This document shows positions 4,301-64,000 of a stretch of DNA of 64,000 nucleotides, in pieces; the first letter of the stretch is position 1; each line of letters begins with the position of its first letter. A model generated the notes under the pieces. It saw nothing but the letters and a program-made list of their open reading frames with translations. It was not told where the DNA came from and searched no databases. Made by a program: the position numbers and the translations under genes. The stretch spans positions 32,424,501 through 32,488,500 of the forward strand of contig NC_134368.1 in assembly GCF_035582795.1 (NCBI RefSeq). Direction: 5' to 3'. The stretch is from Mycteria americana. Taxonomy: Eukaryota; Chordata; Aves; Ciconiiformes; Ciconiidae.

Positions 4301-7300
4301 TGTTGGGATGTTTTCTTTCTTTTAAAGGCTATCGTCCGAATAGGTGAGAGGCATGGGATATATGATGATGTGATCCATAAATTGGGGTGGGTGTGTTGGC
4401 TCTGGATCTAAATCATTGTTTAAAAAAAAAAAACAGGTTGTTTTGCATTTGCAACTGATTGTTTGTTCAGTGTAAAGAATAATGAGCCAATAGGCAATAT
4501 TCGGTAACTCCAAACTTGTCTCCCAATTTTAGGGATCACAAAGTTTAACAATAACAGAATTTGAGCCAGAGGACCTAGAAACGCAGCTGTATGGGAACAG
4601 ATACCCAGGTTATAATGGACACATCATAGCAGACAAGCTAATCCAGAACAGAGATGAGCAGAAACAGCTTCAACTGGCAGAGGAGAAAAGAATTGAAGAT
4701 CACTGGGGGATCTTTGAGGCTGAAAGGATAAGGCAGATTGTAGAAACAGAAGAACAAAGAGAAATGGAAGAACAAAGGTGCCAAGAACTTGAGCAGATGC
4801 AAAAAGAGCAGGAGAGAAGGCGTTGTGAAGAAGAGAGGAGGCAGTATCTCCTTGAAGGACAGACATCTTTGAAAATGGAAGAGCAAACATGCCATAAAGA
4901 GGAGAGAACACTGCTGGAGGCTGAAAAGAGGCAAGAGCTGGATAAGCAGAGACACAAGGAGTTGGAGGAGCAACAGGGACAAGAGCTGGAGGAGCAGAAA
5001 CACCAGGAACAGGAGGAGCAACAGGGACGAGAGCTGGAGAAGCAGAAGCTCCAGGAACAGGAGGAGCAATATAGACGAGAGCTGGAGAAGCAGAAGCTCC
5101 AGGAACAGGAGGAGCAATATAGACGAGAGCTGGAGGAGCAGAAGCGCAAGGAACGGGAGGAGCAACAGAGACAAGAGCTGGAGAAGCAGAAGCTCCAGGA
5201 AGAGAAGGAGCAACAGAGACGAGAGCTGGAGGAGCAGAAGTGCCAGGAACAGGAAGAGCAGAGATGTCAGGAGTTGGAAGAGCAGAAGAGGCAAGAGCTA
5301 GAGGAGCAGAAGCATCAGGAATGGGAAGAGCAGAGGCGCAAGGAGCTGGAGGAGAAACAGAGACGAGAGCTGGAAGAACAGAAGAAGCTAGAGCTGGAAG
5401 AATTAAGGCAACACGCGATTGAAAAACAGTGTCAAGAGGAAGAAGAAAGAAATTGGCTGGAGGAACAAAAAGAACTCAAGGAACAAAAAAAGGAAAAACA
5501 GAGACAAGAGCTAGAAGAGCTTCAAGAAGCTGAAAAAAAGCTGAAGCAGGAGAAAGAAGCTGAGAGCCTCAAACAACAGAAGAAACAGGAGGAACAAAGG
5601 CAGCATTTGAAGGAGAAAGGGGGAAAGACAGAGAAGGAACAACCCCAGCAAGTAATGGATAAGAAAAAGAAACAGGAAGAGCATAAAAAACACAAGCTCA
5701 CAAAACAAATGCACATGGAAAGTGCAGAGGGTGTGCAACAAGATGAACTGAAACAGCAAAAGGAACAAAATGAACAAGAATGGAACAAGCTGGAAGAGCA
5801 GATGGTAGACACAGAAGGACAAAATCTTCAGCAAAACCAACAAGAAAAATCCTTGGAACAGCAACAGGACAAGGATCAGTTGTGTTCTGGAGGGGCTGAT
5901 AGGCATCCGGTAGAGGAGAAGCTTCAAGAAGGATCAAGATGCCAAAAACTCAAAGAGCCAGAAAAAGGGAATAAAACAGCAGAAGAAGTCCTAGCCCAGA
6001 AACTGAAGAGAGAAGTTGAGGCTCAGGAACAAAAGCGAATAGGGGAAGAACTTAGGTGGCAAGAGGTAGATGAAAGACAAACTGCATCCAGACCCTTCAC
6101 ATTTCAAGTGTCTTCTGGAGATAAACAGATCATATTTCAGAAAGTAAACCTGAGTCCAGTCATGCCCATCAAAGGAGCAGGACTCTCTTCTCCATCCATT
6201 AAAGACTGCAGGCCGCCCGCTTCCAGCAAGGGCTCTCATACACTCCCGTCATCTGTGTGTGTACCCCATACAGCTATTCTGGTTACTGGAGCACAGCTGT
6301 GCGGCACAGCAGTTAACCTGAACCAGATAAAGGACACAGCTTGTAAATCGTTACTTGGCTTAACGGAAGAGAGAAAAAATGTGGATATTCCTTCACCAGA
6401 GAAGGCCCAGAAAAAAACCCAGGAGCCCAAGCCCAGCAGCAGTAAAATGAAATATGCACAAGAGACATTGAACAACCAGGCCGTACTAGCTGAGTGGGCT
6501 TCTATCCGCTCCAGGATCCTAAAGAATGCAGAAAACAGCAAATACAATGAGAGAGACCGAGTAAGTGTCTGCAGACACAGTGATGACTGGACACCCCGAG
6601 GACGGGGTGCTCCCCATGGTAACTTGAGGAAAACCCTCTCTGCAAATGCAAAGTTCTCGATAACACCAGCGTGGCAGAAATTTTCAGAAGCTTCAAAACA
6701 CTGTTCAGATGCTGAGAATGTAAGTGCGGCAAAAGGCAAAGAAACAGTGGCTGTAGGAAGAATCACTGGCTCATCCGCTGATTTGAAAGAGGATGTGGCT
6801 TCCACTTTTAAGGATAACTTAGCTGAAAAGGCTAAGGAGAAAATGGAAACCCATAGTGAAATGACAGACAACACAGAAGGCTGTAAATTTGCAAAAGATC
6901 TTCCATCTTTCCTTGTTCCAAGCTTTCCTCATTCTCCGGGTAAAGAATTACCCCAGGCAGAACTTCCCAGTGCCCTGGAAAATCAGCAGAATAACAGCAC
7001 AAAAAAAGCAGATAAACCAGCACCAAATGGAGAAGAAAATATTTCTCCTTTTGGGATAAAGTTACGAAGGACAAACTACTCTTTACGTTTCCATTATGAT
7101 CAACAGGCAGAGCAAAGGAAAAAGAAAAGATACAGTGCAGGAGATAGTTTTGATGGTGTGCCTGACCCACTAGTTACAACAGAAGGTGAGAAAGAATCCT
7201 CTGTTTCTGCTCCACGAGAAAGTACCTCCCCTGGCATGGGGAGAGCGAACGTCCCCGGTATTTTAAAAGACTCAAAAGACTCTTCAGTTACTGTGGTGGA

Positions 7301-36306: not shown

Positions 36307-36739
36307 CTGAAAGATTAACAAATTAGACTGCATTGTCACCTCCTAATTATTAATATTTTAGTCAAATTATATAAGCACACAAAACACTACCAAGTAGGAA
36401 GAAAGACACTTGGCAGAAAACACACAGCTTCACCACACCTTATATTGCAAGAGTGTAAAGCTTAATACTTTTATCGTTTACCATGGATCTCGTCCTAGGG
36501 CCCAGGATACAGTAATTCAGTAAGATTTCATTGCACAGAGGTAGTTTGTTCCTCACCGTTACACCTTTATTTTTAAAGCTGGGCACAAGTGAATTATTAA
36601 CTTTATCAACACAACAAATCATTTTCTCTTTAATAGAACTGTGAAATATGAATCTCTTCTTTGCAACAGAAAACCCAAGGCGTCGATTGCCAAGGCTTTT
36701 AGGGTACTGCTCGTGCTGGTGCACGTCTCTGCCCAACGG

Positions 36740-37880
36740 GGCCCTCCCGTCACGCCCGTACCGGATGACGGAGCCGCGGACCGGAAGGCTCCGGGCTAAG
36801 GCCCCCTCTCGCCTCCGCCGCGCCAGGGTCAGGACTCCGCAGCGGTCCCGAGCGAGGACAGGCGGCTCCTCCACACCCCGCCACGCTCAAAGCCCCCCGT
36901 TTCCACACACGGCCTGGCCGCTCCCGGGGCGGGCGGCTGCGCCACGAGCACCGCGGGACCTCTGCGGGACAGACGCCATCAGCGCGGCCCCGCCGACCGC
37001 TGCCGCTACCCCCAGTGGCCGGGGCTCGGGGCAACGGCCACGCCGCGCGATCCCCCACCTGAGGCAGCGCCGAGCAGCACCTCCCAGCGCCCTCCGTCGC
37101 CACCTAGCAACGGAAGGTCAACGCTCCTGATTGGCGGGGCAGTGTTAGTCGTGCCCGACTCTGCAGTAACGCGCGCTCTCATTGGCCGATGGCCGTCGCG
37201 CTCTTTGGGCATCCACAAGCTGAGCCCGGTCCGCCAGCGGCCTGCGTGGGGCGGCGCCATTTTTTCCTGAGGGTGAGAGGAATTGCGAGTGCACCAGAGC
37301 CCTGCCAGCCCTCCGGTAACTCTTCTTCGGACGTGAGGAAGAGGCTAAACAAACGCAGGGAGCCGAGGTGAAGGGCGAAGTTCCCCCTCCTCCACTCACA
37401 ATTCACTCGTCTCTCTCCCCGCGTCCCCCCGCCTCCCCCCCCCAGGAGGTGGTACGGGCCTTCCTGCCGGTGCTCTCGCCGTTGGGCCGGGGCAAGTACG
37501 TAACTTCCGGGGGGACGGGGTGGGCCAGCCGTTGCCGCGGCCCTTGCCGCGCGGGCGGGTGATAGCGCTTCGCTCCTCGGCCGAGCTGCGGCGGCGGGGA
37601 GCGGGGCCTGGGGCAGCCCCTGCCGGGCTGCCGGCGGGGCGGCCGGGGCGTGCTTCCCCCTCGGCTGGGTTTCAGAGGCGCCAGCGGGGAGCGAGGGCGA
37701 GGGGCGCGGGAGCCGGCAGCGGTAATGCGGTGTGGGCTGCGAGCGGGGGTGGGTGATTGGATAGCGACGCGAAGCGATTTGCTCCAGCTTCGAGGGCGCT
37801 TCCAAGGTGGCTTTATTAAGGAAACCTTGGAGCGTAGTGCCGGCGAGCGCAGTGAAGGGAGAGAGAGCGAGCGAGCACAC
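36740..37880 (-). promoter_or_regulatory. CpG island, AASDH promoter (possibly bidirectional)
   Basis: About 1.1 kb of very GC- and CpG-rich sequence directly upstream of the AASDH first coding exon. ATTGG at 37130-37134 and at 37181-37185 are CCAAT boxes in minus orientation. A GC box (GGCGGGGC) adjoins the first. The segment 37096-37111 (GTCGCC, 4 bp, AGCAAC) resembles an RFX X-box with a long spacer. No TATA box is obvious. Open frames in the island are compositional. Confidence 0.75.
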
Positions 37881-40378
37881 CAGTTCATAACCATTTTTAA
37901 TATTACGCATGGGAGAAGTTAGACATTAGCTTTCTACTGTTTTGTCACATTTTGCAAATGATAATTTGGCACAGTTGCACATCGGTAATACAGCAGAAAC
38001 AGTTTCACAGTACAACATTGAAATAATACAAACAGCGACACCTAAAACCAGAGGGGTTTTTCTCCCTCGACATACTCATTGCATGTGTGTGTCCGCTGTA
38101 TGTGATTAAAAAAGGCCTGGCAACCTGAAGCTTAAATCCAGCTGTCGGAGAATAAGATGACACTTGAAAAGCATCTCCCCTTTAACTTCAGGTTTTGAAA
38201 AATATGTGCTAAGATGAGGCATGTAGTGTGTCTAAAAATTACAGTGCTTACAGTGGCTGACCTTGTAATTTCACGTGCATAACATGGAGGGAAAGAAGGC
38301 ATTAGGACTTACTTTACTGAAATCAGGATTATGCCACCTAATGTTCAAATCACATTTAAGCAATTGTTACCAGAGTTCAAAAATACCAGTTTTGTTGAAA
38401 ACATGTTAAAAGAGTATTTGCACAAGTTTCACGTACAGTCTGATCTATAGACAAATTCAGGTAAGTCAACAGACTTCTGCTTGCAACCATGTTAAACTGC
38501 GCACCTAAGTTTTTATCTCGAGTAGAAAGGGCTCCTCACACGTATCTATAACCTAAGAGCTTGACTTACCCCTTCTTTTAAAAATGATTGCTTTTTTGAG
38601 GGCAGGAAAGGAGAAAGGTGAAAAACATTAATGACAGTTTTTCTGTTTTCTCACACTCCTCCCTGGTTAATCTGGAAGAGGGGGTGCTCAGAGTGACTCC
38701 ACCCTGTTCTTTTTTTGCTCAATTTACTGTCCAGGTGAATTGTTATGGTTCTGTTTAAAAAACCAAACAAATTTGCTAATTAGACAGAAGAGATCCACAT
38801 ACATCCCCCCATATGCAGATCTGGGCTTTGGTGAAGAGCACAAAGTAAGAGAGCCCAATGCTCTTGAAAATCTAGATTCTCCCATAGGCTTGACTGCAAG
38901 TAGCTTCCGATTCCTCAGCACGAGGCACAGTCTTGACTTCATTAAATGTATTTACATGCTTTCTTGAATTGGGACTTTTGTTTTGTGATTGTCTATCAGG
39001 CACAATTGCTACAAATCCCACGCAAGAAAGCTCCCTTTTGAATTTAATCACCAGTGCTGTAATACTCAACTATGTGGAAGATGATGGGGAAGGAAGAAGC
39101 TCTTAAACTTTTCTATTTATTTTTTTGTAACAGTATCACAAACAATTATAAGGCCAAAACACACAATATTAAATAGAAAATCTAAAATTAAGTTGCTGGT
39201 ATTCAGTGAAAAAACCTGAGGTATACAAAATATTTTTACAATTGTGCGTAAATTTGCAATAGTTTTCAAAAGGTGCTTTTCCATTTTCAGCTAGTGGTTC
39301 ATTGACCCAGTGATCTTCATGTATACAAGTAACTGTAATTGTGACCAATTAAAAAATACAATGTATTCAATAGCTAATGGTTCTTCAGAACTTTTTTTTT
39401 AAAAAAACATTACATTTATTGTAACAGCAGTAATGTAGCAAAATAAGACTATACCCAGAACAACTCATACTCTTCAGCTGATATATTGTATTTACTGTTA
39501 AGAATGAAAAGTTACTATTTTTCAGTTTACTTTGGACGTTGACATATGAAAAGCACACTGAGCATTAGTCAGACTTCAGAAATTGTCAGGACTTATCCTG
39601 GAGAAAACAAGATGTAAAACAGAAAAAAAAAATGGCAGTGCCAAGTATTCTTTCTCCTTCCACATCCTGTTGGCAGCTGATAAAAGCACACAAAGATAAT
39701 GTAATTACAGTGGACTTCAAAAAAAGATTTTTACAGTTATAAAACTAGAGAGCTTTTGGCTGAGCATTTCCCTGAGTCTTCATTTTTTAAAATCATATGC
39801 TAGACATTACGTTCATAGAACCTGTTACAAAGGGCTTGATTAATAAAGGCTGTTCAGCTATATATGCAAAAGTTAGGTACTTCTATTCTTAAAAAGCCTA
39901 AGGAAGAACTGCTGAGGAAGCAATTTGATTCTTCACAATCTGGTATTTTTCCTAAGGAGAAAAGCAAACTTCACATACTTTTGCATTAAGGCTTTGATAA
40001 TTTGAAATTACACCACACAATTCGTGATCTGTACTTTGTGAACAAGTCTAACAGGGATATCTTCCGGGGCAAGACCAAAACAAAAAACTCTGGGACCACT
40101 ACATAATTAAAAATACTTTGGTTTTTATAATATTTTATGAGGAAATAGAAGGCACAACTGTGCATCAAAACTATATGATTTTGTATTTTAATCTGCTTCC
40201 ATTGTTTTCATCAGCACATCGGACTTTCTGTAAGTCTGTACGGTAAAGATGTATTTTAGTAACAGTAATTGTAATAAGCTTTCTGTATCACCTAAATATA
40301 AGACGACTATTAGCAAGAAGGCATCTTTGAAAAAGGTACATTCAGCAAGAGATGAACTGGTGTCCATCCACTAAAAAT
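37881..40378. other. Between AASDH promoter and PPAT stop: PPAT 3' UTR and spacer (inferred)
   Basis: AT-rich with no convincing exon. Minus-strand AATAAA signals are at 39415-39420 and 39116-39121, which would give PPAT a 3' UTR of about 1.0-1.3 kb. Confidence 0.45.
39415..39420 (-). terminator. Candidate PPAT poly(A) signal
   Basis: TTTATT on plus, AATAAA on minus, 959 bp beyond the stop codon. A second candidate is at 39116-39121. Confidence 0.35.
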
Positions 40379-52500: not shown

Positions 52501-53678
52501 TAAAGGAAGCTGGAATTCCTGTAAACCTTAAGGAAAGCTGAAACCCAAGCAGGAGCAGGAATGTAGAACAGATAACACAGTGCTGAAGTTGAGAAAAGCT
52601 GCATTTAAAAGTGTGTGCATGTGTGTGTGTGAATCAGGCTGTAAGTAACAGATAGGAGGCGGGAAATGCCTGAAGGGGCGACAAACATGATGCTTGATGA
52701 GACAAGATTTTGCATGAGGCATTGAGCAGTCATGCATAGATATACATGCTGCTGCAGCAAAGCAGTTCTTACTCTTGGACTCATTTGAACAGCTTAATTA
52801 ATCTTCCTCAGAAACCTCTGAACATGAAGACAAACTGCTTTCTGATTGCGGTCAGAGAACACACATCAAGAACTGCCCCGTGGTTATTTTGCTGATGTAG
52901 TTTTATTTCCTGCTCTTCCTTATTTCCTCCCTTCCTGCTCTTTATTTCTCTGCTCTTCCAGGATGGAATAGGCGGATGATTTTTTTTTTTTTCTTGATCA
53001 CTATTCAATACAGCATGAGCAGAAATATCCCCAGAGCACACAGGTATTCTCCTGGCAAAATACTTTTGAGGCTATGGCCATTTTATGTCTTTTAACATCC
53101 CCTGGGATTCTCTCAGCTCAAGAAAGACTGCATGATCTACTCAGGCATCCATTCAATCTTTTATTCTGTTTATTTTTACCTATGGGTAAAGTAGCTACCA
53201 TTTCCTTGAGTCTCACCAATGCAAGAATTAGTCATCCATTTGCTTGTGCATAGCCTGTAACTGTATTTCTTTTCTCTTGATCTCAAGTCGCATCAGTCCT
53301 CCAGAGTTAACACCCTAGGTGTGGGGTGACTTTGGTAAGTAATTTTTGTGACATCAGTAGCCTGGTCTGGATGCTTCTGTGTGTCTGCCACTGTGTGCAT
53401 GGATACACCCAGCAGGATAACGTTGGCGTATTTCTTTCAAACATGCGCTTAAGACAGAAGTTGCACAAATAACAGAATTAGACACTATCACTGACAAAAC
53501 CAAAACAGTCCATCAAAATGTTACTTTCCCTCTAATTATTCTGTTTCCTAGCTGAAACAAACTTTCATGCATCTCAGTTCGCCATCCACAAAACATTAAT
53601 TTACATTTTACCTTGTGCACTTTGAATGCCTGGGACGACTCTCCATCACTTGTCACAATTCCAGCACTCTCCTGGCCC
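40379..53678 (-). CDS. PPAT: PPAT, amidophosphoribosyltransferase (exons 2-11; exon 1 not in window)
   Basis: PPAT catalyses the first committed step of purine synthesis, turning PRPP and glutamine into phosphoribosylamine in the cytosol. Ten minus-strand exons join in frame: 53678-53612, 50125-49919, 48564-48452, 48332-48187, 46899-46827, 44958-44807, 43552-43425, 43118-42897, 42123-42003 and 40554-40379. They give 467 residues plus stop. Vertebrate PPAT is about 510-517 residues, so about 43 are missing, as expected for one exon with the propeptide and catalytic N-terminal Cys. Visible are glutamine-pocket motifs [11 protein letters not shown] and HNGELTN, PRPP loop [13 protein letters not shown], and the cysteines expected for the 4Fe-4S cluster ([22 protein letters not shown]). 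The frame is intact throughout. Confidence 0.95.
40555..42002. other. PPAT intron 10
   Basis: Non-coding. No exon or repeat is recognised. Confidence 0.6.
42003..42123 (-). CDS. PPAT: PPAT exon 10
   Basis: [20 protein letters not shown] and [19 protein letters not shown]. The Cys in RFPCYMGI matches a conserved Fe-S ligand position. Acceptor TATTCAG, donor ATAG|GTAAAT. Confidence 0.95.
42897..43118 (-). CDS. PPAT: PPAT exon 9 (PRPP loop)
   Basis: 74 codons. [19 protein letters not shown], then [19 protein letters not shown], the PRPP-binding loop, ending RESGAKE. Acceptor GTTTACAG, donor GAG|GTAAGT. Confidence 0.96.
43425..43552 (-). CDS. PPAT: PPAT exon 8
   Basis: [40 protein letters not shown] and QK, the start of the phosphoribosyltransferase domain. 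Acceptor GTTCTTAG, donor AAAG|GTATAT. Confidence 0.94.
44555..44580. repeat. Perfect 10-bp inverted repeat in PPAT intron 7
   Basis: CCAGGCTGCC, 6-base loop TCAGCA, GGCAGCCTGG. It is a strong GC-rich hairpin on either strand. It lies about 230 bp from the exon 7 donor. Confidence 0.8.
44807..44958 (-). CDS. PPAT: PPAT exon 7
   Basis: [20 protein letters not shown] and [18 protein letters not shown]. The Cys in AFCIFEYVY is one of the conserved Fe-S ligands. Acceptor TTTCAAG, donor GAAG|GTAAGA. Confidence 0.94.
44959..46826. other. PPAT intron 6
   Basis: AT-rich non-coding sequence. Nothing is recognised. Confidence 0.6.
46827..46899 (-). CDS. PPAT: PPAT exon 6
   Basis: [20 protein letters not shown], then IGAE split across the donor AGA|GTAAGT. 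It joins to [11 protein letters not shown] in the next exon. Confidence 0.93.
47725..47848 (+). mobile_element. CR1 LINE 3'-end fragment
   Basis: GAGCAACTGGCTCTAGGTGG, CCCTGCTTCAGCAGGGGATT and CCTCCAGAGGTCCCTTTCAA, ending TTCTGTGATTCTG: the sense-orientation CR1 3' end with its terminal 8-bp repeat. It is antisense to PPAT. Confidence 0.87.
48126..48180. repeat. TA/TG/CA microsatellite next to PPAT exon 5 donor
   Basis: An almost alternating pyrimidine-purine tract (TATATACATATATGTATATG and similar) ending about 6 bp from the GT of the exon 5 donor. Confidence 0.8.
48187..48332 (-). CDS. PPAT: PPAT exon 5
   Basis: [20 protein letters not shown], then [20 protein letters not shown]. Acceptor ATTTCAG, donor AAAAG|GTAAAC. 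A TA/TG microsatellite begins less than 10 bp past the donor. Confidence 0.94.
48452..48564 (-). CDS. PPAT: PPAT exon 4
   Basis: Begins [20 protein letters not shown] and ends DDTADWVAR. Acceptor TAAAAG, donor CAAG|GTGAGG. Confidence 0.93.
48565..49918. other. PPAT intron 3
   Basis: Non-coding. The open frames on both strands at about 48700-49115 have no splice or motif support. Confidence 0.6.
49919..50125 (-). CDS. PPAT: PPAT exon 3
   Basis: 69 codons. It begins [19 protein letters not shown] and contains [11 protein letters not shown] and [19 protein letters not shown], the glutamine-binding residues of the class II amidotransferase domain. Donor AAG|GTTAGT. Confidence 0.95.
50126..53611. 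other. PPAT intron 2
   Basis: Non-coding, with a short TG tract near 52610-52632, a T-run near 52979-52992, and the hairpin at 51843-51873. No exon is seen. Confidence 0.6.
51843..51873. repeat. 11-bp inverted repeat in PPAT intron 2
   Basis: GATTAATAGCC, 9-base loop TTTGTCAAG, GGCTATTAATC: a perfect stem. Neither arm resembles a known element. Confidence 0.75.
53612..53678 (-). CDS. PPAT: PPAT exon 2
   Basis: Acceptor TGTCCATAG, donor CACAAG|GTAAAA. Its first base completes an Arg codon split with the missing exon 1, then it reads [20 protein letters not shown] and HK, the glutaminase-domain segment after the N-terminal strand. Confidence 0.93.
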
Positions 53679-55560
53679 CTATGGACAAAATACGATTAAT
53701 ATAAAGCACTGAAATTCTTAGAATGAAATGCTTTAACATACAATGGATTGGTGGTTTTTCATCTGTTCTTTACAACATAAAATTTTAATGTAAGCTTATT
53801 TGTTGTTTCATTTTACAGGCTTGTAATCAAAACTGGTTTCTTGCCCATGTTATGCTTTATTTCAAAACAGTAACATAAGGTTTGTGCCTAAGCCCACTGA
53901 ATTCAGTGGGAATCTTTCCACTAATAAGCACTGGCTTAGGCTCTTACTGGAGTCCTCTTTCAGTGTGGGCATAAAATAACGGCAGATGCTTAATCTGAAA
54001 AGCCACTTTGCAGTGATAGTCTAGGCTCTAGTAGTAGGCTCTATAGCACTACTCTATTTCTGCTTTGGTTTGGGGAGGGGTGTTAAGAAACTGATGTTTT
54101 TTGCCTAAGGGAATGCATTGTCTCTTCCACTGATCACCTATGCAGAAGCTTTTGCATTCTTGCACTTAAGCAGTCAAGCTAGCATTTACACCTCTAAAAG
54201 GTATATGGACCCTCTGATAAAAGTGTTTGAGCACATAAAACTAGTATCGGGCATCACAGCTTCTGAACTCAAGCAAAACAAGCCTGGTGTACAGCATCAC
54301 TGCAAATGGAAATACTTCTCTTACAGCAGATCAACCTAGGGCTGGCAGGTGTGCTTTGTTGAGCAGAAGAGCTGTATCAGCTGAAATGACAGTTTTCCCT
54401 AGCCTGCTCCCTGTTCTCCCCAGGCCTGTCGCCACGCTCGGACATGCCCAGCACACGGGCAGGTTCCCTGACGCTGCCCTGCCAGAAGCAGGCAGAATAC
54501 TGCACAGCTGCCCAAGGTTTATAATTCAGTCCTTATCCATTGAAGAGGTATGTTTTGCAGACTGGATTTTTTGTGGGTAACAGTGCAGGCCACTCGATCT
54601 TCCTTTAAAAGGCTTCCTGGAATAAGGCAGAGTGTTGCCTCTAACAAAACTGCCGCCATATACCCACCACGCCTGTAACACTCACAGGGACTTTGGTGGA
54701 CTGGTAAACTCCCGTCCATATATATAATAATAATGGCTGAAAAGCAAAGATGTTTTTCTTAAAAAAGGAAACACTTAGAAAATTTTTAGAATATTAGAAG
54801 AAGATGCTATTTGCACATTAGACTGGTTTAACTCAACTGAAGTCACTGGAATTATTTAGTATAAGCAACAATAAAACTGGGGACAAAAAAATCTACAGAA
54901 TGGATGCTAATCTACAACTGACCATGCTCATTACAAATTTTCTCCAATTCCTAAAATCCCTTTATTGGTCACTAGCCCCAGCTGCATGTAAAGCAAAATC
55001 GTAAAGAACACTTGCTTACAGAAAACCAAACCAACAAACTTCACACGTATCTGAACGAATTTACCCTGTTATTGACACAGATGATTCTCAAGAGAAAAAT
55101 CAGAGATGAGGATATTCCTAAATGCATTTATTTTAACTTGGGAAGATGTCCCATCTATAAACACAAAGAATGGTAGTAAAACCCGAGGGCTGATAGACTG
55201 CACCCAGCAACTTTAAATTGAAATGTTAATATTACAGGCAATTTCCATTTAAGTACTGACGCTGTCCCTTTAAACATCAACCAAATCAATAGCCAGAAAG
55301 AGCAAAGCACACATCCTCAAGGAAAGGCCTTTCAAGCCGTTGGGCGACACATTTTATGTAGTGCTGATGAACGAAAAGGAAGCTCAACTTCACTGCCACA
55401 AAGCTTACACCATTTTACCAATTTAGTGAGATTTTTAAGTATGCAAGCTTTTTATTAAAGCATCGCTATAACCAAGGACTGTTAGAGTTAAAAATGCGTA
55501 TACGTGACCACCGATTCAAAACCAAACACCACACGGAGAAGCAAATGCAAAGCGGGATGA
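53679..55560. other. Upstream of PPAT exon 2 (PPAT intron 1) before the SANT-gene CpG island
   Basis: Holds the hairpin repeat at 53886-53941 and a short related relic near 54825-54860 (CAACTGAAGTCACTGGAATT). No PPAT exon 1 is found. Confidence 0.55.
53886..53941. repeat. Hairpin-type ancient repeat with nested palindrome
   Basis: Outer arms GCCTAAGCC (53886-53894) and GGCTTAGGC (53933-53941) enclose an 18-bp perfect palindrome CCCACTGAATTCAGTGGG (53893-53910). The layout matches the old sauropsid hairpin repeat that reads AAGCCCATTGAAGTCAATGG ... CCATTGACTTCAATGGGCTT. The family name is uncertain. Confidence 0.55.
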
Positions 55561-55579
55561 CCCTCTCCCATTCCTCCCG

Positions 55580-55900
55580 TGTCAACGCCCGCAGCTTCAC
55601 CCCAGCACAGGGCGGGCGCACGGACGGGGCACGCGTCTGGCGCTTCGTGCGCCTCTTTTTTGTCTGTAAAGGAACAGGACGGGGCGACTCTCTTTTTTTT
55701 TTTTTCCCTCCCTCGTTACCACCACGGTGCTCGTACTGGAGCCCTTTTTCACAAGAAGGGTTAAACCGAGCCCATCCAGGCGCTGCCGGGCTGCTTCCCC
55801 GCCCGGCTGAAGGCCGCCTGCCTCGCCTCGCCTCGCCGCCCCCGGCACGGCTCCCGCCCGAGCTGCTGCACTCGCCCGCCTCTAATGCCGAGCCTGCTTA
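55580..55900 (+). promoter_or_regulatory. CpG island upstream of the SANT-like gene
   Basis: About 320 bp rich in CG dinucleotides, in otherwise AT-rich DNA, ending about 150 bp before the ATG at 56056. It includes a T-run near 55690-55705. This is the likely promoter or 5' UTR of the gene at 56056. No TATA box is evident. Confidence 0.65.
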
Positions 55901-56055
55901 TTTGGCAGTTTCTCAAGTTACTCCCCTCAGGCAGCTTGAGCCAGTAAAACTAGATCCTCTCCTCTCGGCGGAGCTTACTGACAACCAGCCGTCTGGTTTC
56001 CTAGGAAACAAAATCTTGGCTAGAAATAGTGAATCATTTCCAGGTCACTTTCAAC

Positions 56056-56443
56056 ATGGAGAGTGGAGCAGGGAAGCATTGGACTGAGGAGGAGGTTAAA
56101 GCCTTGCTAAGCGTCTGGTCAGAAAAAAATATCAGAAAGCAACTCCACGGCACCCTGAGGAATAAGGGAATATTTATCTACATTGCTAAAAGGTTGCAGG
56201 AGTTAGGAGTTTGCAGGGATTGGAAACAGTGCCGTGCAAAGTATAAAAATCTGAAGTATGAATACAGAACGGTTAAATATGCCCACAACTCTGGGGATGT
56301 CACTAAAACCATGAAGTTTTTCCATGATCTGGATGCCATATTGCGCTATGAGCCTGTCACACAATTAGCAGCAGAAGAAAACGGCAGGTGTTCTGCAACT
56401 GAGACGCAGCTGAACACAAGCCCCACAACAGAGAGCACGCAAG
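56056..56443 (+). CDS. SANT-like gene exon 1 (DNA-binding domain)
   Basis: Encodes residues 1-129, the entire trihelix-like domain in a single exon, as is usual for domains spread by retroposition or transposon capture. Donor CAAG|GTAAAA. If unspliced, the frame continues for about 21 residues and stops at 56509-56511. Confidence 0.85.
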
Positions 56444-59400
56444 GTAAAAAACTGTTTTTGCTTCTATTCTCTCTTTGCTTAAAAACCAAAGGGAACAAAC
56501 CCGAAGCCTGAGTTTGCTCGAGCCGAAGCGGAGGTTGCGCAGCCCCAACAGCGCTGTTAGAACTGACTTGATGCGCTCCTCGCGCAGGGGAATAAAATGT
56601 TAGCACCCACCAGTGTCGAAGTCTGTAAATACAGCGTAATTCTAGCAAAATTATGCTAACTGCTTGTATTGCAGCCTCGGTGAGTACTCGCTGGCGTCAA
56701 GGCTCCTGCACTGGATTGAAATGTTAAATTAAGAAAAGCTGTTTTCTTTCCCTTTGACATTCGTTTGCAGTACTTTGGAAGCAGGTTTCGTAGAGCTCCA
56801 ATTCAGATGTAAAAATAAAGACAGACAAAAGTAAAGGTTGAAACTGTCATGATTTTTAAAAAATCGTTATCTGTGATACAAGTGAAATTCAGGATTTTTA
56901 TTCTTATTTCTCTGTAACAGAAAATTTAGGTATGATGACTAAAGGTAAATTAAATTATTTTGTAAGCAATTCAACTTAAGTCTTTGAGAAACAGGGGATG
57001 TTTAATAACTCCTCATTAAAAATTGTAACGTAGTGAGGAAAGTAAAAATCATGTTTATCAGACTATTTTGAGGCAAACCAGATGAATACAACTGCTTTTA
57101 TTCTGAAGGGGTTTTTACCAAATTATTTGTATCTCTCGTTTTATTCAACCCTCTCTACATATGCATTTAAGCTGTGCTTAACATTTCATTAGGGTCAATC
57201 TGCTATTTGACATCACTCAAATCTCCTTGTCACAGCCTAAATGTCACTGAAGCGTAAGCCCCAATAATAGTTATACGTACCAAAATAAGATGGCTAAAAA
57301 GAGAAATGCAAAGCTTAGCTGTTTGTTCCCTCACTATGTGGCCATTTACGTTAATTAAGATTGTGAATCTTTTTTAAGAAAACAAAAAACTCAACATTAG
57401 TATCAGGGGAGATTGCCAAAGGCACAGAAAGGAGCTGGACATCTAGCTTGCCCTTGTACCTTCCACCTCTCCCTCTACAATGCTGTTTTACAAGTCTGAG
57501 GAAAAGAAATTGCCTTTTTTCTTGTCATTGTTTACCTTAACAAAAAGCTTGACCTTAGTTTGTCACCACTAGCAGAAAGCTTCTAATTTGTCAAAGTCAC
57601 TTTAAATTAAAACAGCATTTTAATTTTATAGCATTTAAAATTTTATAATATTTTAACATGTGCTTTCTGCACTGTGTATTGCAATCCATTTTTATTTTTA
57701 AACTTGCAGAACTGAGGCTAATAGAAGCTGTTACACTTCTGAGGACTACATGAAACTAAGATAGTGTCCTTCACCTGAGGATCTGCCCTTAGATTACTCT
57801 CTGTGTTTTGATGTAGTTTGCACCATCAATCCTAATTCTCATCTGCCTTAGACCTCTAGCAAGTTTAGATCGGAAAAGGTTAATTTCAGTTGTGAATCCC
57901 AAACTAGAATATAAAAGAAAAATTACCCCTGGGTGAGACACACCTCATTTTGAAGCATTAGGACAGTCCGGTTTTAAAGGCAATATAATTAAGTATCTCT
58001 CTTGAATGCACAAGCATTTCTGTTACTCCCTCAAAGAAAAAAACCAAACAAGTTTTATGGATAAACAGAAATTAAATGCAACTAGCTGTAATAATGCAGC
58101 ACTAATGGTAAGAATTTAAATGCAAAGATTCCCACAGCAACCATAATTCAGCCGCAAAGAAAACACACCAAGATAGAAACGCGTCCTGCAGCTATGCAGA
58201 ATGCATACATCCATAATAAGGGGCAGAGAGAACAGCTGTGAGAACATCAACTTTCTTCATTTAAGAATACAAGCCAAGCAAGTAACACCGTACTAGAGGC
58301 GACTGCAGCCCGAGCTGCAATGTCTGCTCAGGGGAGGCTGCCCAGCTCAGTACTTTGAAGGGCACTTGTAAGGCTAAAATGGCATCTCTGGCTCTGCAGC
58401 TGATGCTCACAAGTTCTGTTGCAGGGGCAGATCTGACGGTGTGACCCCCACAGAAGGAAACGCGATTCCCCGCACAGGCGAAGGCAGCCCACTGCCCCTG
58501 CCCCTGCCCCAGCAGTGAACCTGGCTGGTCCCCAAGGCCTGCGGGAGGAAGGGGACGGCTTTAACGTGGGCATCATCCTCCCTAAGGCAAACGGACCAAA
58601 GCACAGCTGCCTCCCTGCAGGCCCCCTCCTGGGCTTCTCCCTTTCAACCACAAGAGTGTTACAGGAGAGGAGGGGAAAATGGTCCCTCCCCTCTTTAAAG
58701 AGGCCGAGAAGCCTCATTTTGACAGAGCTGGAGGAACCGAGGATGCCTAGGCTTGTGACCTGGGTAGCAACGACAAAATACTATCAACAGACTCAAACCT
58801 GTGCCAAGTAATACCGTCCAGTGTGCATGCCTTACTTATTTTAAGAACCTAGTAGCTATACAAATTTGTTTTGCTTGAAAAGCATGATGAGGGACAGGGC
58901 ATGCTCCCAAAGAAATTACTGTATTTTTACCATTCTGCTTAGCCTCAGTCTAAATATTTATATCCATCCTTAATGTAAAGCTGCAAAGCACGTCTTTGTG
59001 TTTGATTTCCTTGATTATCTCAGCTACTGGGAGATTGCTGGGGAGGGGGAGGAAGGAACAAAAAAAGAGACTACTTTTATGGGACTGAATGGTATTTCTA
59101 TAGTGTTTTCCTGAGTTTTTCTTCATATCTTGTAAAATCAGTTTTCTTTTGAAAGTGTAATTGAAGAAATTAATACTGAAAATCACCATCAAATCTAAGA
59201 GAGAGGTGTCTCGGGACAAACTTGGTAGCAACACACATACCAATTCCCAGCTCGTTCATGGAAAGATGACACTTTTTGCATAAGCACATACAGCAGTGCA
59301 AGCCAGAGATGTTCATGTTGTCCTCCCAAAATACATGTTTTCGGAGGAATTGTAGATTAACTAATCATTTAAAAAGATACAACTTAACATGTTCACTTCT

Positions 59401-62400
59401 CTCAAAATTTAGTTTGTGTATTATCCCAGTAATCAACAACCAAGAAAATCCATGCAGAGTGATGGTGCACTGTGAAAAGTGGTATCATTCATTAGAGTTC
59501 ATGACCTTCCCATTTTGTTAATCAGTTTTGATTGTTTCAAGTTAAATCAAGTATTAATAAATCAAGTACATTATTTGCAAAAGTAAAGCTCACCTAGTAA
59601 TTCATATTAAGTTACTTACACTCTTTTATATTTCTCTCTTTATGCTTAAATATTAACGCACTGGCTGCTTTCCTTGCCTTTCACTTTACCACAGCAAATG
59701 CAGAAAAATTATCAAGTCTGAGCAGAAATGCATCAGCAATGACAGTCCTATCATATGTACAAAACTCAGACAGCTACTAGAAATGCAAAAAGATCCTTCA
59801 GAACTGCCGACTTGAAAATGCCACTTATACATAGTTTTCCATGTCTGGACATGGAAACATGTCATTGACAAGTATTTTATTTATGCATTTTTTTAATAAG
59901 TATGCAATACTGTTATTGAGTAACTTCTGCTCATCAGAGGCTTTTTTTCCCCCCCATCAAATATTCTAATATCTTTTTGTGTTAACTGTTCTTACTTACT
60001 TAAAATAAGAAATTGTTTCTTTTTAATATTACAATGTAATTAAACTTGCTCATCCTAGTACCCATGGCACACTCGGCAGCCTTCCAAGAGAGAATTTATT
60101 TCCCCTTTCCATAGTTTGCTTTGCAGCTCTTAAGCAGCTGAAACGCCGGTCCTGGCGCTAGAGGTGGAGGCATGAGCATGAGCGCACCTTTCCCTCCGTC
60201 AGCCCGGCCGCAGGGGGTAGCAGCTCCTGGCAGAGAGGCAAGGCAGACAGCTGGGAGCAGTCAGAGATCAGGCCACTGCATCTATGAGGTCATTCTGAGC
60301 CTTGCTGAAAGTCAGGAGGATTTAGGATAATGTTTGCAAATGAATCCAAACGCAGTTTTCAGTTTCACCTGCGTCAGGGATACCAGGTTGCATCCTAACT
60401 GCACCTCGTTACTGTTCCTTGTGATGAAGTACTGCAGCACCTTTGAGCAGGTAGCTTTGATCTGTGTGACCTGCCTGGCTGGAGCTGACAGTAGCTCACT
60501 CCCCGGACAGTGAATCAACATTTCAATCCTCCTGCCAACATGGTACGTTGAATACAGCGTATTACCATGGACCAACTTAAAAGTCTGTCCTCTGTGAAAA
60601 TTAAACTGATTCAGAACCTGACTTACATATGCTGCTTTCCAAACTTACATAGCAATTGCTATAATATTGCTCTTTAAACAAATGTAGGAATGCTATACTG
60701 TAGAAAGCTAGACTGAATCCTGTCAGCTACAAATACGTCTGTTCTCTAATCACAATATTTTTCCGCTTTCCCTGTGCCATTAATGAATTCCATGGATTCC
60801 CAGGACTCTTTGCAGAACACTCTTGTTTTCTTCATACTCTTCTCTAAATACTCTTCTTGGAATTTCTTTTTTTGTTATATAAATGGATTTGTGGTTATCT
60901 GGATCCATGTGCAAAGTCCACTTTTATTTGTATGTCTCTTATTTTCATTATCTATTTTCAAACTATACTTCTCATGTGCTGTCTGCCCCAAATACTGAGT
61001 CACAGAAAAGCATTCAAGTCACTAGAATCAAGTCGGTTTCTACAAGAATTTTAAAATACATTTCAAAGAGGCTTCATATATAAGATATAAAATAATTTAA
61101 TTTGCCTCCTATAACTCATGTCCCCATATGGGGACAGGCCAAATGAATTTTAAATTAAACCTAAATACAAATTAAGTGTGGAGATTACAAAGTTATTAAT
61201 CTTCTCATTGTGTATGGACATTTTCACTTAAACTCATTTAAGCTAATTTAGTCCATACCTATTTTTCATCTAAAAACTTTTTCCTTCCCAGGTGAAATAT
61301 CAGTTTCTTTAGAAGATGATGAGGATGCTCCAGGAGATCCACTACTTTTTATGTCACATGTCAGACCAGTTCAACTAGGTATAGTATGATGGCGCAGAGA
61401 GATCAAAAACTAAAAAGCAGCATGGCTGTCAGAGCACTTTCTGATAGCTTGAATACGCCGTCATTCTGTTTCTGATCAACACAGCTTCAAAATAGCCACA
61501 CTTTTGGACCATCTCCTTCCCAGTTTTAGCACTTGGCAGTCTCATGCATCACTAAATACTCACCACTGTATATGATGTAACTCCTGCATGACCACCGTTC
61601 ACACTCAAAACACATCCCATGCTATAGCTTAATCGTATTAACCACACTAACCACATTAATTTTGTTAAATGCTAGTGGAAAGTATGCCAAATGGTAGTGT
61701 GTGATACCTATGTCAACTTGGGGATTTTCTCCAACTCACGTAATTTCTGCTTAAAGCAGCATGAGTGATGGCCTGAGCCAGGAGAGATAGACAGAGGTCA
61801 GACCTGTCCTACTGAGCAATTCAGATTTGCAGTGGTCTGCAAAGCAGCTGTATCCTCTCTCCAAGCAAGGGGTAGTCAGCAATGCTTTAGTCCAACCAAT
61901 CATACAACAACTCATCTGGAAACCATCCTACTGTAGTAGTTTTGCTCAGGAAAGTCATTACAGAGCAAAGGCACAAATGTGGCAAGCCAGAAAGAGGGAG
62001 AAAATCCTAGGTGTGAGCCCCTTCTAGGGGCTGCTAAAGGGAAGGGAGAAACCTGAACACATTTTAGGCAGAATTAGGCAACCAATGAGCTGATTCCTTG
62101 CCTGGATGAACAGCAGCACTGTCCTGAATTTCCTACATGCTCTTTCCATTTTTTACATACCCTCTATGCCTAGCATACATCCCAGTCCAGCTACAACAAC
62201 TTTCACTACAGAATCTCCAAGGTGCCATATTCAGGGAGAAAACAAGGCCCCAGCTAAACCTACAGGTTTTATGTTACACACTACACCCCTCTTGCCTGGC
62301 ATAACAATAAATTAGGGAAGAGACAAGAATCTCACGTGGAATTATATGCACATACATATAAACAAAACTTTTCTTGCAGTAGCTGAATCAAATTTTACAG

Positions 62401-63446
62401 GAATATGTCTGTGTTATTCAGTGCTTTTGCAACACACTGCCAAGCAGATTCATTTGGCCTGCTAAAAGATCTTCAGTTCTGAGAAAGTTGCTTGCTACAA
62501 AGCCAGCAAAATAAATTCAATTGCATGAGCTCTCAAGTATGTACTGACACTAAAATGTCTTCCCTAGTGCCTCTCTTAGTCTTTAGATTTCAGCCACTAT
62601 TTCAGACACCACTGAAAGAAAAATGTTGAGCCCTTTGTATCTATATTGCTTAATATTTTGGTTTCATTTCAGCAGATTTCTCACTTTGAGGAAGGTTAGA
62701 AAAAAATGGCTTAAACACATCTTTCAGATCAAAAAAGAATGTATATCCTGTCTTAACAATTTTTTTTAAAAACAAATTAGAGCTAAAATACATTTGAGAC
62801 ATAAGGAAAATTTTCACAGTGACCATAACAACTGTGTTTCAAAGCGGTGCTTGTGGGTAAGATATTTTGAATCACAATGTTTTTTAAAGGGAATGAGGAA
62901 CAAACAAAGCCACCGTTTTCCACTCTGCATACAGCAGAATGAATGAGCAATGCACTGAGTCACTAGAACTCATTTGAACTAATATCCACAACCAAAAGTG
63001 AGCTCAGATGCAAATGAACTTAGTAGTGAGAAATACTGGTCTACACAAGAACTAAAGAAACCTTATCCCTCCCAGATTGCCCCATACTCTATGGCTTTGA
63101 CTGGGAAGTGCAGGGAGCACCCTCTGCATCCTTCTTCCTCTTTTCTTCCGCTGTGCCTTTTCTCTCTGGCCTCTGTGGCACTCTCGAAAAATGAACCACT
63201 CTGGAAATACAGATAGTTGAAATACTGCTGGTAATCCTGAGCAGAGACTACATCAAGCCTATCTGATGTTGGCAGTTGTCAACTGTGGCAATTCCTATGG
63301 TTGCATTCACCTGTAAACAAGCATTTTCTTTCACTCCCTCAGGAAGAAATGAAGAAAACATAATTGATATGTCACCTGAAAATTACCCTCCTCAACAACG
63401 TATCAGTGAGCTGGCTGCTGCAGAGGTCCGATTAACACAGGACTGA
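56056..63446 (+). CDS. Unnamed Myb/SANT-like (trihelix) domain protein, 192 residues, three exons, antisense to PPAT
   Basis: Not recognised as a named gene. Exons 56056-56443, 61292-61378 and 63343-63446 join in frame (both junctions split a Gly codon after G) and end at TGA 63444-63446. The ATG has A at -3 and G at +4, and an in-frame TAG lies upstream at 56002. Residues 8-98 form a Myb_DNA-bind_4 type domain: HWTEEEVKALLSVWSEK, IAKRLQELG, then DWKQCRAKYKNLKYEYRTVK and MKFFHDLDAILR, with Trp9, Trp21 and Trp56 and a basic third helix. This class occurs in ZSCAN20/29, MSANTD proteins and transposon-derived genes. The tail has a Thr/Ser-rich linker, an acidic patch SLEDDEDAPGDPLLF and an Ala/Glu helix ISELAAAEVRL. 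Inferred: nuclear DNA binder, perhaps with an acidic interaction surface. There is no nuclease or zinc finger. Confidence 0.8.
56444..61291. other. SANT-like gene intron 1
   Basis: Mostly AT-rich. GC-richer islets lie near 58430-58640 and 60140-60250, with short open frames but no supported exon and no CR1. Confidence 0.55.
61292..61378 (+). CDS. SANT-like gene exon 2 (acidic segment)
   Basis: 29 codons after a strong acceptor (TTTTTCCTTCCCAG), reading EISVSLEDDEDAPGDPLLFM and SHVRPVQL. Donor CTAG|GTATAG. Without splicing, a TGA follows within three codons. Confidence 0.75.
61379..63342. other. SANT-like gene intron 2
   Basis: AT-rich. No exon or repeat is recognised. Confidence 0.55.
63343..63446 (+). 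CDS. SANT-like gene exon 3 (C terminus)
   Basis: Acceptor TTTCTTTCACTCCCTCAG. It reads RNEENIIDMSPENYPPQQRI, then SELAAAEVRLTQD and TGA. Confidence 0.75.
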
Positions 63447-64000
63447 CAGGGAAAAAATTAGTATCTGTTAGTACAGCTTTTTCACAACTAGAATGAATTA
63501 CAGAGACTAGCAAAGAATGCCTCTATCTAGGACAAGTTTGTCCCCAGACAGGTTATTATACACAAGTATGCCCCACTGAAGCTGTATGTGCAAGCAAAGG
63601 TCAGATATTTTTGCCATCACACAAAGCTCTGTGACTATAAAGTATCCAACCCCTGTAACCTGGCTTGCCCTTTTAGAATAAGATACTTGCAAAGGCATTT
63701 ATCACTTCAGTATGATTGCAAAAAACTGTGTCAGTTACTGTGCACTTTCATATTTGCTCTCTTTGATAAGCACTGGAATTGTGGGGTTTTTTAAATAGTT
63801 ATTTTTGCAAAGATTTAGAAAATGCATGAGAAACCACTTTCCAAACTAATTTGATAATCAAAATTAAGTCTTAAAGGAAATTCGTAACTAGAAACAAGGA
63901 AACATTAAAAAACTGCAAACTGCAAGAGATCATATTTCAGTGTTTTAAGTAATTGCATGGCATCCTTTACCTCCTAATATTAAAAAATAAAGTTGAAGAC
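63447..64000 (+). other. SANT-like gene 3' UTR (inferred)
   Basis: AT-rich with no open frame of interest, running to the AATAAA near the window edge. Confidence 0.5.
63986..63991 (+). terminator. Candidate poly(A) signal of the SANT-like gene
   Basis: Canonical AATAAA, 540 bp after the stop codon. The cleavage site would fall at or just past the window end. Confidence 0.45.

Follow-up and report, generated by a model that had tools for sequence, protein, structure and literature searches.

Trihelix proteins, in which the third helix reads DNA, are covered in Pfam by Myb_DNA-bind_4 (PF13837), a family that includes vertebrate proteins of the MSANTD1/MSANTD2 type and plant trihelix/GT proteins. 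The nearest published parallel that we found to the locus described here is the history of ZSCAN20, ZSCAN20-like and UTF1. In the excerpt of that study that we used (PMC3706607), opossum ZSCAN20-like carries a second SANT domain, ZSCAN20 and ZSCAN20-like are inferred to be tandem duplicates, and eutherian UTF1 is derived from ZSCAN20-like. Repeated SANT domains and tandem duplication are also seen at the present locus, a likeness by description that extends as far as this excerpt. However, ZSCAN20 and ZSCAN29 have a SCAN domain, while the contig carrying the exons studied here has none: a genome search with the SCAN profile (PF02023) gave two matches, on contigs C27 and C1, and none on contig C4. 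A gene of the ZSCAN20/29 type was rejected on this ground, as far as the SCAN search goes. Among the open-licence papers of PubMed Central, none was found to describe a trihelix gene in a PPAT intron.

The window, that is, the whole stretch of 64,000 nucleotides that was analysed (C4:32424501-32488500, in a searched genome of 1.35 Gb and 279 contigs), had been predicted to contain a SANT/trihelix gene of three exons. The predicted gene is probably real. Our overall explanation, to which we give a probability of roughly 0.6, is that PPAT intron 1 hosts an antisense coding unit built of three trihelix exons, old and in tandem, called units A, B and C below, of which A is exon 1 of the predicted gene. 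The features are as follows, all on the scale of the window, which is continued past its end where needed; splice scores are in bits.

53612..53678, minus strand: PPAT exon 2 (acceptor from the sequence; the low end is the end of the tblastn match)
53679..64000, minus strand: portion of PPAT intron 1 that falls in the window, with the rest reaching to about 88042 and including units B and C
about 55401..56200, no strand: CpG island, candidate promoter of the plus-strand unit (GC 0.52-0.62, CpG observed/expected 0.63-1.0, in 400-bp windows)
56005..56055, plus strand: open codons directly 5' of the ATG, like the same place in unit C
56056..56443, plus strand: exon 1 (unit A), with a complete Myb/SANT-like trihelix domain and a phase-1 donor
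61292..61378, plus strand: predicted exon 2, 87 nt, phase 1-1, acidic (SLEDDEDAPGD); acceptor 8.6, donor -0.3
63343..63446, plus strand: predicted exon 3, terminal, carries the stop codon; acceptor 7.4
63986..63991, plus strand: poly(A) signal AATAAA; a second one starts at 64008, past the end of the window
about 64733 or 64787 to 65170, plus strand: unit B, trihelix exon, open through the domain
75615 to 76016, plus strand: unit C, trihelix exon, open through the domain

Position within the PPAT gene

With the human PPAT and PAICS proteins as mapping queries, PPAT exon 2 through the last exon were placed on the minus strand from 53683 to 40382, and PPAT exon 1 at about 88170, which is about 24 kb past the end of the window. 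PAICS lies on the plus strand, where 89720 marks the first of its exons to be detected. The donor of PPAT exon 1 reads GTAAGG and the acceptor of exon 2 reads CATAG; by these splice sites, intron 1 spans about 53679-88042, or approximately 34.4 kb. A CpG island at PPAT exon 1 (87201-89800) is common to PPAT and PAICS. The same head-to-head arrangement is given for human PPAT and PAICS in the excerpt of PMC4695129 that we used.

The mapping confirmed that the trihelix coding exon lies intact, antisense and upstream of PPAT exon 2. The original prediction had located the gene between PPAT and PAICS, which is wrong: because PPAT exon 1 faces PAICS head to head, some 24 kb past the end of the window, the trihelix gene is, with near certainty, nested antisense in PPAT intron 1. 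Neither an RNA family (Rfam) nor a tRNA (ARAGORN) was detected in the window.

The trihelix domain and its three copies

The protein predicted from unit A matches PF13837 at residues 7-95, covering profile positions 2-89 of 89 (E 2.3e-18; 66.8 bits against a gathering cut-off of 27), so the Myb/SANT-like domain is complete, as had been claimed. Exon 1 is therefore well supported as a domain-bearing exon and not a chance frame, and we are highly confident that it is coding. Judged by the sequence definition of PF13837, unit A is a known kind of gene. Its sole matches in the PDB were those to the trihelix domain of Arabidopsis GT-1 (2ebi and 2jmw; residues 7-89, E 0.003-0.007), a weak likeness, to a plant protein and by sequence alone.

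A tblastn search placed two additional trihelix exons, B and C, on the same strand and in the same intron as A, with matches at 32489301-32489612 and 32500171-32500473 on the scale of the contig. Like the described PF13837 proteins, all three units carry the domain above the cut-off, with 78.4 bits for B and 72.7 bits for C. Within the domain, identity is 56.7% over 104 codons between A and B, 50.5% over 97 between A and C and 60.8% over 97 between B and C, and it is unevenly spread. In the segment aligned with helix 3, the three pairs agree at 15/18, 17/18 and 16/18 positions, compared with 42/73, 30/73 and 43/73 elsewhere (one-sided Fisher tests 0.036, 2.6e-5 and 0.014, for a segment picked by the analyst). 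This near identity suggests that A, B and C probably recognise similar DNA sites. The product of the unit is quite likely to be a DNA-binding regulator, going by its domain.

Between A and B, the method of NG86 gave a dN of 0.327 and a dS of 1.526, and YN00 gave 0.381 and 0.988, respectively. For A-C and B-C, dS by NG86 was not computable, which we read as saturation. Differences by codon position (first/second/third) numbered 37/19/50 for A-B, 37/23/61 for A-C and 34/23/53 for B-C. Silent sites near saturation together with a retained protein indicate that the three units are old, constrained duplicates, and the duplications are probably older than birds. The suggestion that the gene might be lineage-specific is unlikely, considering the age of these duplicates.

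A profile search of the genome for PF13837 returned at least eight matches, three of which were A, B and C. With the 192-residue product of the predicted gene as the query, there were at least nine matches, namely its own three exons, B, C, one unit each on C5 and C1, and two with E above 0.1. The relatives in this genome differ clearly from the three units: among the matches listed, the closest were those on C5 (34% identical to A) and C1 (31%). These two (C5:27978306 and C1:156877911) are other trihelix genes in GC-rich contexts that resemble first exons. Two further units, at C4:11488463 and on C19, we take to be MSANTD1 and MSANTD2. In a tree of seven trihelix units of this genome, A, B and C were placed together with support of 87/96, although no inner branch reached the starred support level and several branches were long.

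The predicted gene and a proposed wider unit

The predicted gene could be reproduced as drawn. Splicing of its exons 56056-56443, 61292-61378 and 63343-63446, with both junctions in phase 1, keeps the frame and gives 579 nt, encoding 192 amino acids and a stop codon. The start context (AACATGG) and the upstream in-frame stop (TAG at 56002-56004) were found as described, the gene's own CpG island covers the start of exon 1, and it is the sole island found in PPAT intron 1 besides the one at PPAT exon 1. The poly(A) signals also stand where expected.

Exons 2 and 3 were weighed by counting similar candidates in control sequence, with the thresholds set post hoc at the observed values. Splice scores came from a scoring matrix with which five PAICS exons gave acceptors of 3.8-9.3 and donors of 1.5-8.8. 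Exon 2 has a strong acceptor and a weak donor; open phase 1-1 exons whose two splice sites score no lower were counted once in the span of A (8.2 kb, plus strand) and once across about 126 kb of control strand segments. Terminal exons like exon 3 occurred once in the same span and five times in the controls, so that about 0.3 would be expected in the span by chance. On these counts, the support for exon 2 is moderate, and that for exon 3 is weak. Codon and residue composition tests were given no weight, because they failed to tell even A, B and C, which are certain trihelix exons, from open control stretches. The residue ranks of these three were 0.27-0.33; exon 2, exon 3 and a candidate at 71407-71493 fell in the top 2-4%, but so did an arbitrary frame at 60203. 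In addition, the training set of one run (896 codons) included four stops, meaning that some pieces were out of frame, and the control pool of the other was neighbouring DNA that may contain real exons.

The in-frame TAG at 56002-56004 also closes a possible splice acceptor (TTTCCTAG). The similarity between A and C, moreover, continues 5' of the ATG (EIVNHFQV in A, EAQNHFKV in C; local score 27); among 13784 overlapping open control stretches of the intron, 16 reach this score or exceed it. Both observations suggest that the reported ATG may not be the ancestral start and that A itself may have descended from an internal exon. The stretch 56005..56055 is accordingly listed as a candidate, either for an extension of exon 1 or for the relic of an internal exon.

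Regarding the whole gene, the exons and frame of the prediction are present in the sequence, while its completeness is doubtful. B and C share the strand and intron of A, and what was predicted is probably just the beginning of a larger unit with three trihelix exons, or one of its isoforms. Every candidate splice site of B (three acceptors and one donor) and of C (one of each) is in phase 1, like the donor of exon 1. There is no CpG island at B or at C in the island scan, the open frame of B has no methionine 5' of the domain, and the 0.7 kb leading up to B contained no first-exon candidate at the threshold used. Based on these signals, we lean slightly towards A, B and C forming one transcription unit. 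This reading is weakened by the low scores of the exon 2 donor, the B acceptors (-0.7, 0.7 and 3.2), the C acceptor (3.2) and the C donor (0.8), by the finding of nothing resembling exon 2 or exon 3 near B and C, and by the possibility that the shared phases were simply inherited from one duplicated exon. It is further weakened by C, the frame of which has an ATG ahead of the candidate acceptor, in poor context (TGTATGT), and before which there is one first-exon candidate (75069-75156). C could thus have its own start.

The last point leads to the strongest alternative, namely that the intron holds three separate small tandem trihelix genes with their own starts, the three-exon gene being complete as drawn. 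The three exons join cleanly, the poly(A) signals then stand 0.7 kb before B, and C has its first-exon candidate. However, the features missing at B (in-frame methionine, island and nearby first exon) tell against a separate gene there, and exon 3 alone is within chance, so we consider this arrangement the less likely one.

Harbinger transposases are accompanied by Myb/SANT-like proteins, and the three units could on this basis derive from a mobile element, Harbinger-like or of another type, whose duplicated gene for a Myb-like protein is now decaying, with exon 1 as a relic and exons 2 and 3 arising by chance. The composition score of exon 1, which is not special, would agree with this. In contrast, A, B and C are all open through the domain with change biased to third positions, and no long inverted repeat was found in the interval 53000-64000 (the best arms are imperfect, 25-27 nt and 70-76% complementary). 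The many dispersed copies of a PIF/Harbinger-like family were not seen either; the small number of genomic matches given above, with three of the PF13837 matches being A, B and C themselves, argues against an active transposon family. That the units are such decaying pieces is accordingly improbable. The gene may still be a small domesticated regulator, or descend from a Harbinger-type element. A role of the trihelix exons as alternative 5' exons for PAICS is more improbable than decay. PAICS is on the same strand, and its matches start at 89720, some 13.7 kb past C, but it has its own CpG island with PPAT (87201-89800) and we know of no fused trihelix-PAICS protein.

If a single three-trihelix unit is present, its transcription would start at the CpG island of A, and splicing would continue from A to B and C, which the compatible 1-1 phases of the exons allow, so that the protein would have as many as three trihelix domains. 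The poly(A) signals near 63986-64008 would terminate a short isoform made of A and exons 2 and 3 (192 amino acids); we regard the chance that this short form is used as even. The product would presumably be a nuclear regulator of the trihelix/MSANTD kind that binds DNA in a sequence-specific manner; its one to three domains would share a DNA specificity, and its acidic linkers or tail would contact partners. Antisense transcription may in addition interfere with PPAT. It can be tentatively speculated that a single old three-trihelix factor reads clustered copies of one motif, is transcribed against PPAT, and may adjust purine synthesis, acting in cis or in trans.

The trihelix unit is thus real, probably old, and oddly placed. 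If it is real in other sauropsids as well, an old DNA-binding gene, or a cluster of three, lies antisense in the intron of a much-studied purine gene, and would offer a defined case for timing loss or retention in mammals and for asking whether antisense transcription affects PPAT. It also serves as a warning: a neat model of three exons may be a piece of a larger unit.

Further exon candidates and neighbouring features

A scan for plus-strand phase-1 exons from A to PPAT exon 1 gave two internal and nine terminal candidates. The reverse-strand control gave no internal and 20 terminal ones, so that terminal candidates are not enriched (20 vs 9). One open stretch of 87 nt, the same length as exon 2, lies between B and C at 71407-71493 (C4:32495907-32495993; phase 1-1), and ends in IKKETIEI, which we take to resemble a SUMO site. 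A terminal candidate after C, at 78624-78844 (C4:32503124-32503344), has 72 codons and a stop, and is charged and helical-looking. Both are protein-like by eye, and the composition of the latter is ordinary. A Pfam search of three tail or candidate exons, including these two, gave no match, and 78624-78844 had no clear relative in the genome, its one weak match (E 1.2) having a stop inside. The two stretches are regarded as leads only.

Elsewhere in the window, a CpG island with GC up to 0.75 occupies 36601-38000 and is, judging from gene order, presumably the promoter of AASDH. At 4927-5401, there is a tandem repeat of 48-bp and 144-bp units, strongly purine-rich on the plus strand, with an AT skew of 0.68 in 5001-6000. 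The repeat is open in one frame over 4927-5395, reading as an EEQ/ELE-rich coiled coil, and is probably an exon of the neighbouring gene, which we assume from gene order to be CRACD.
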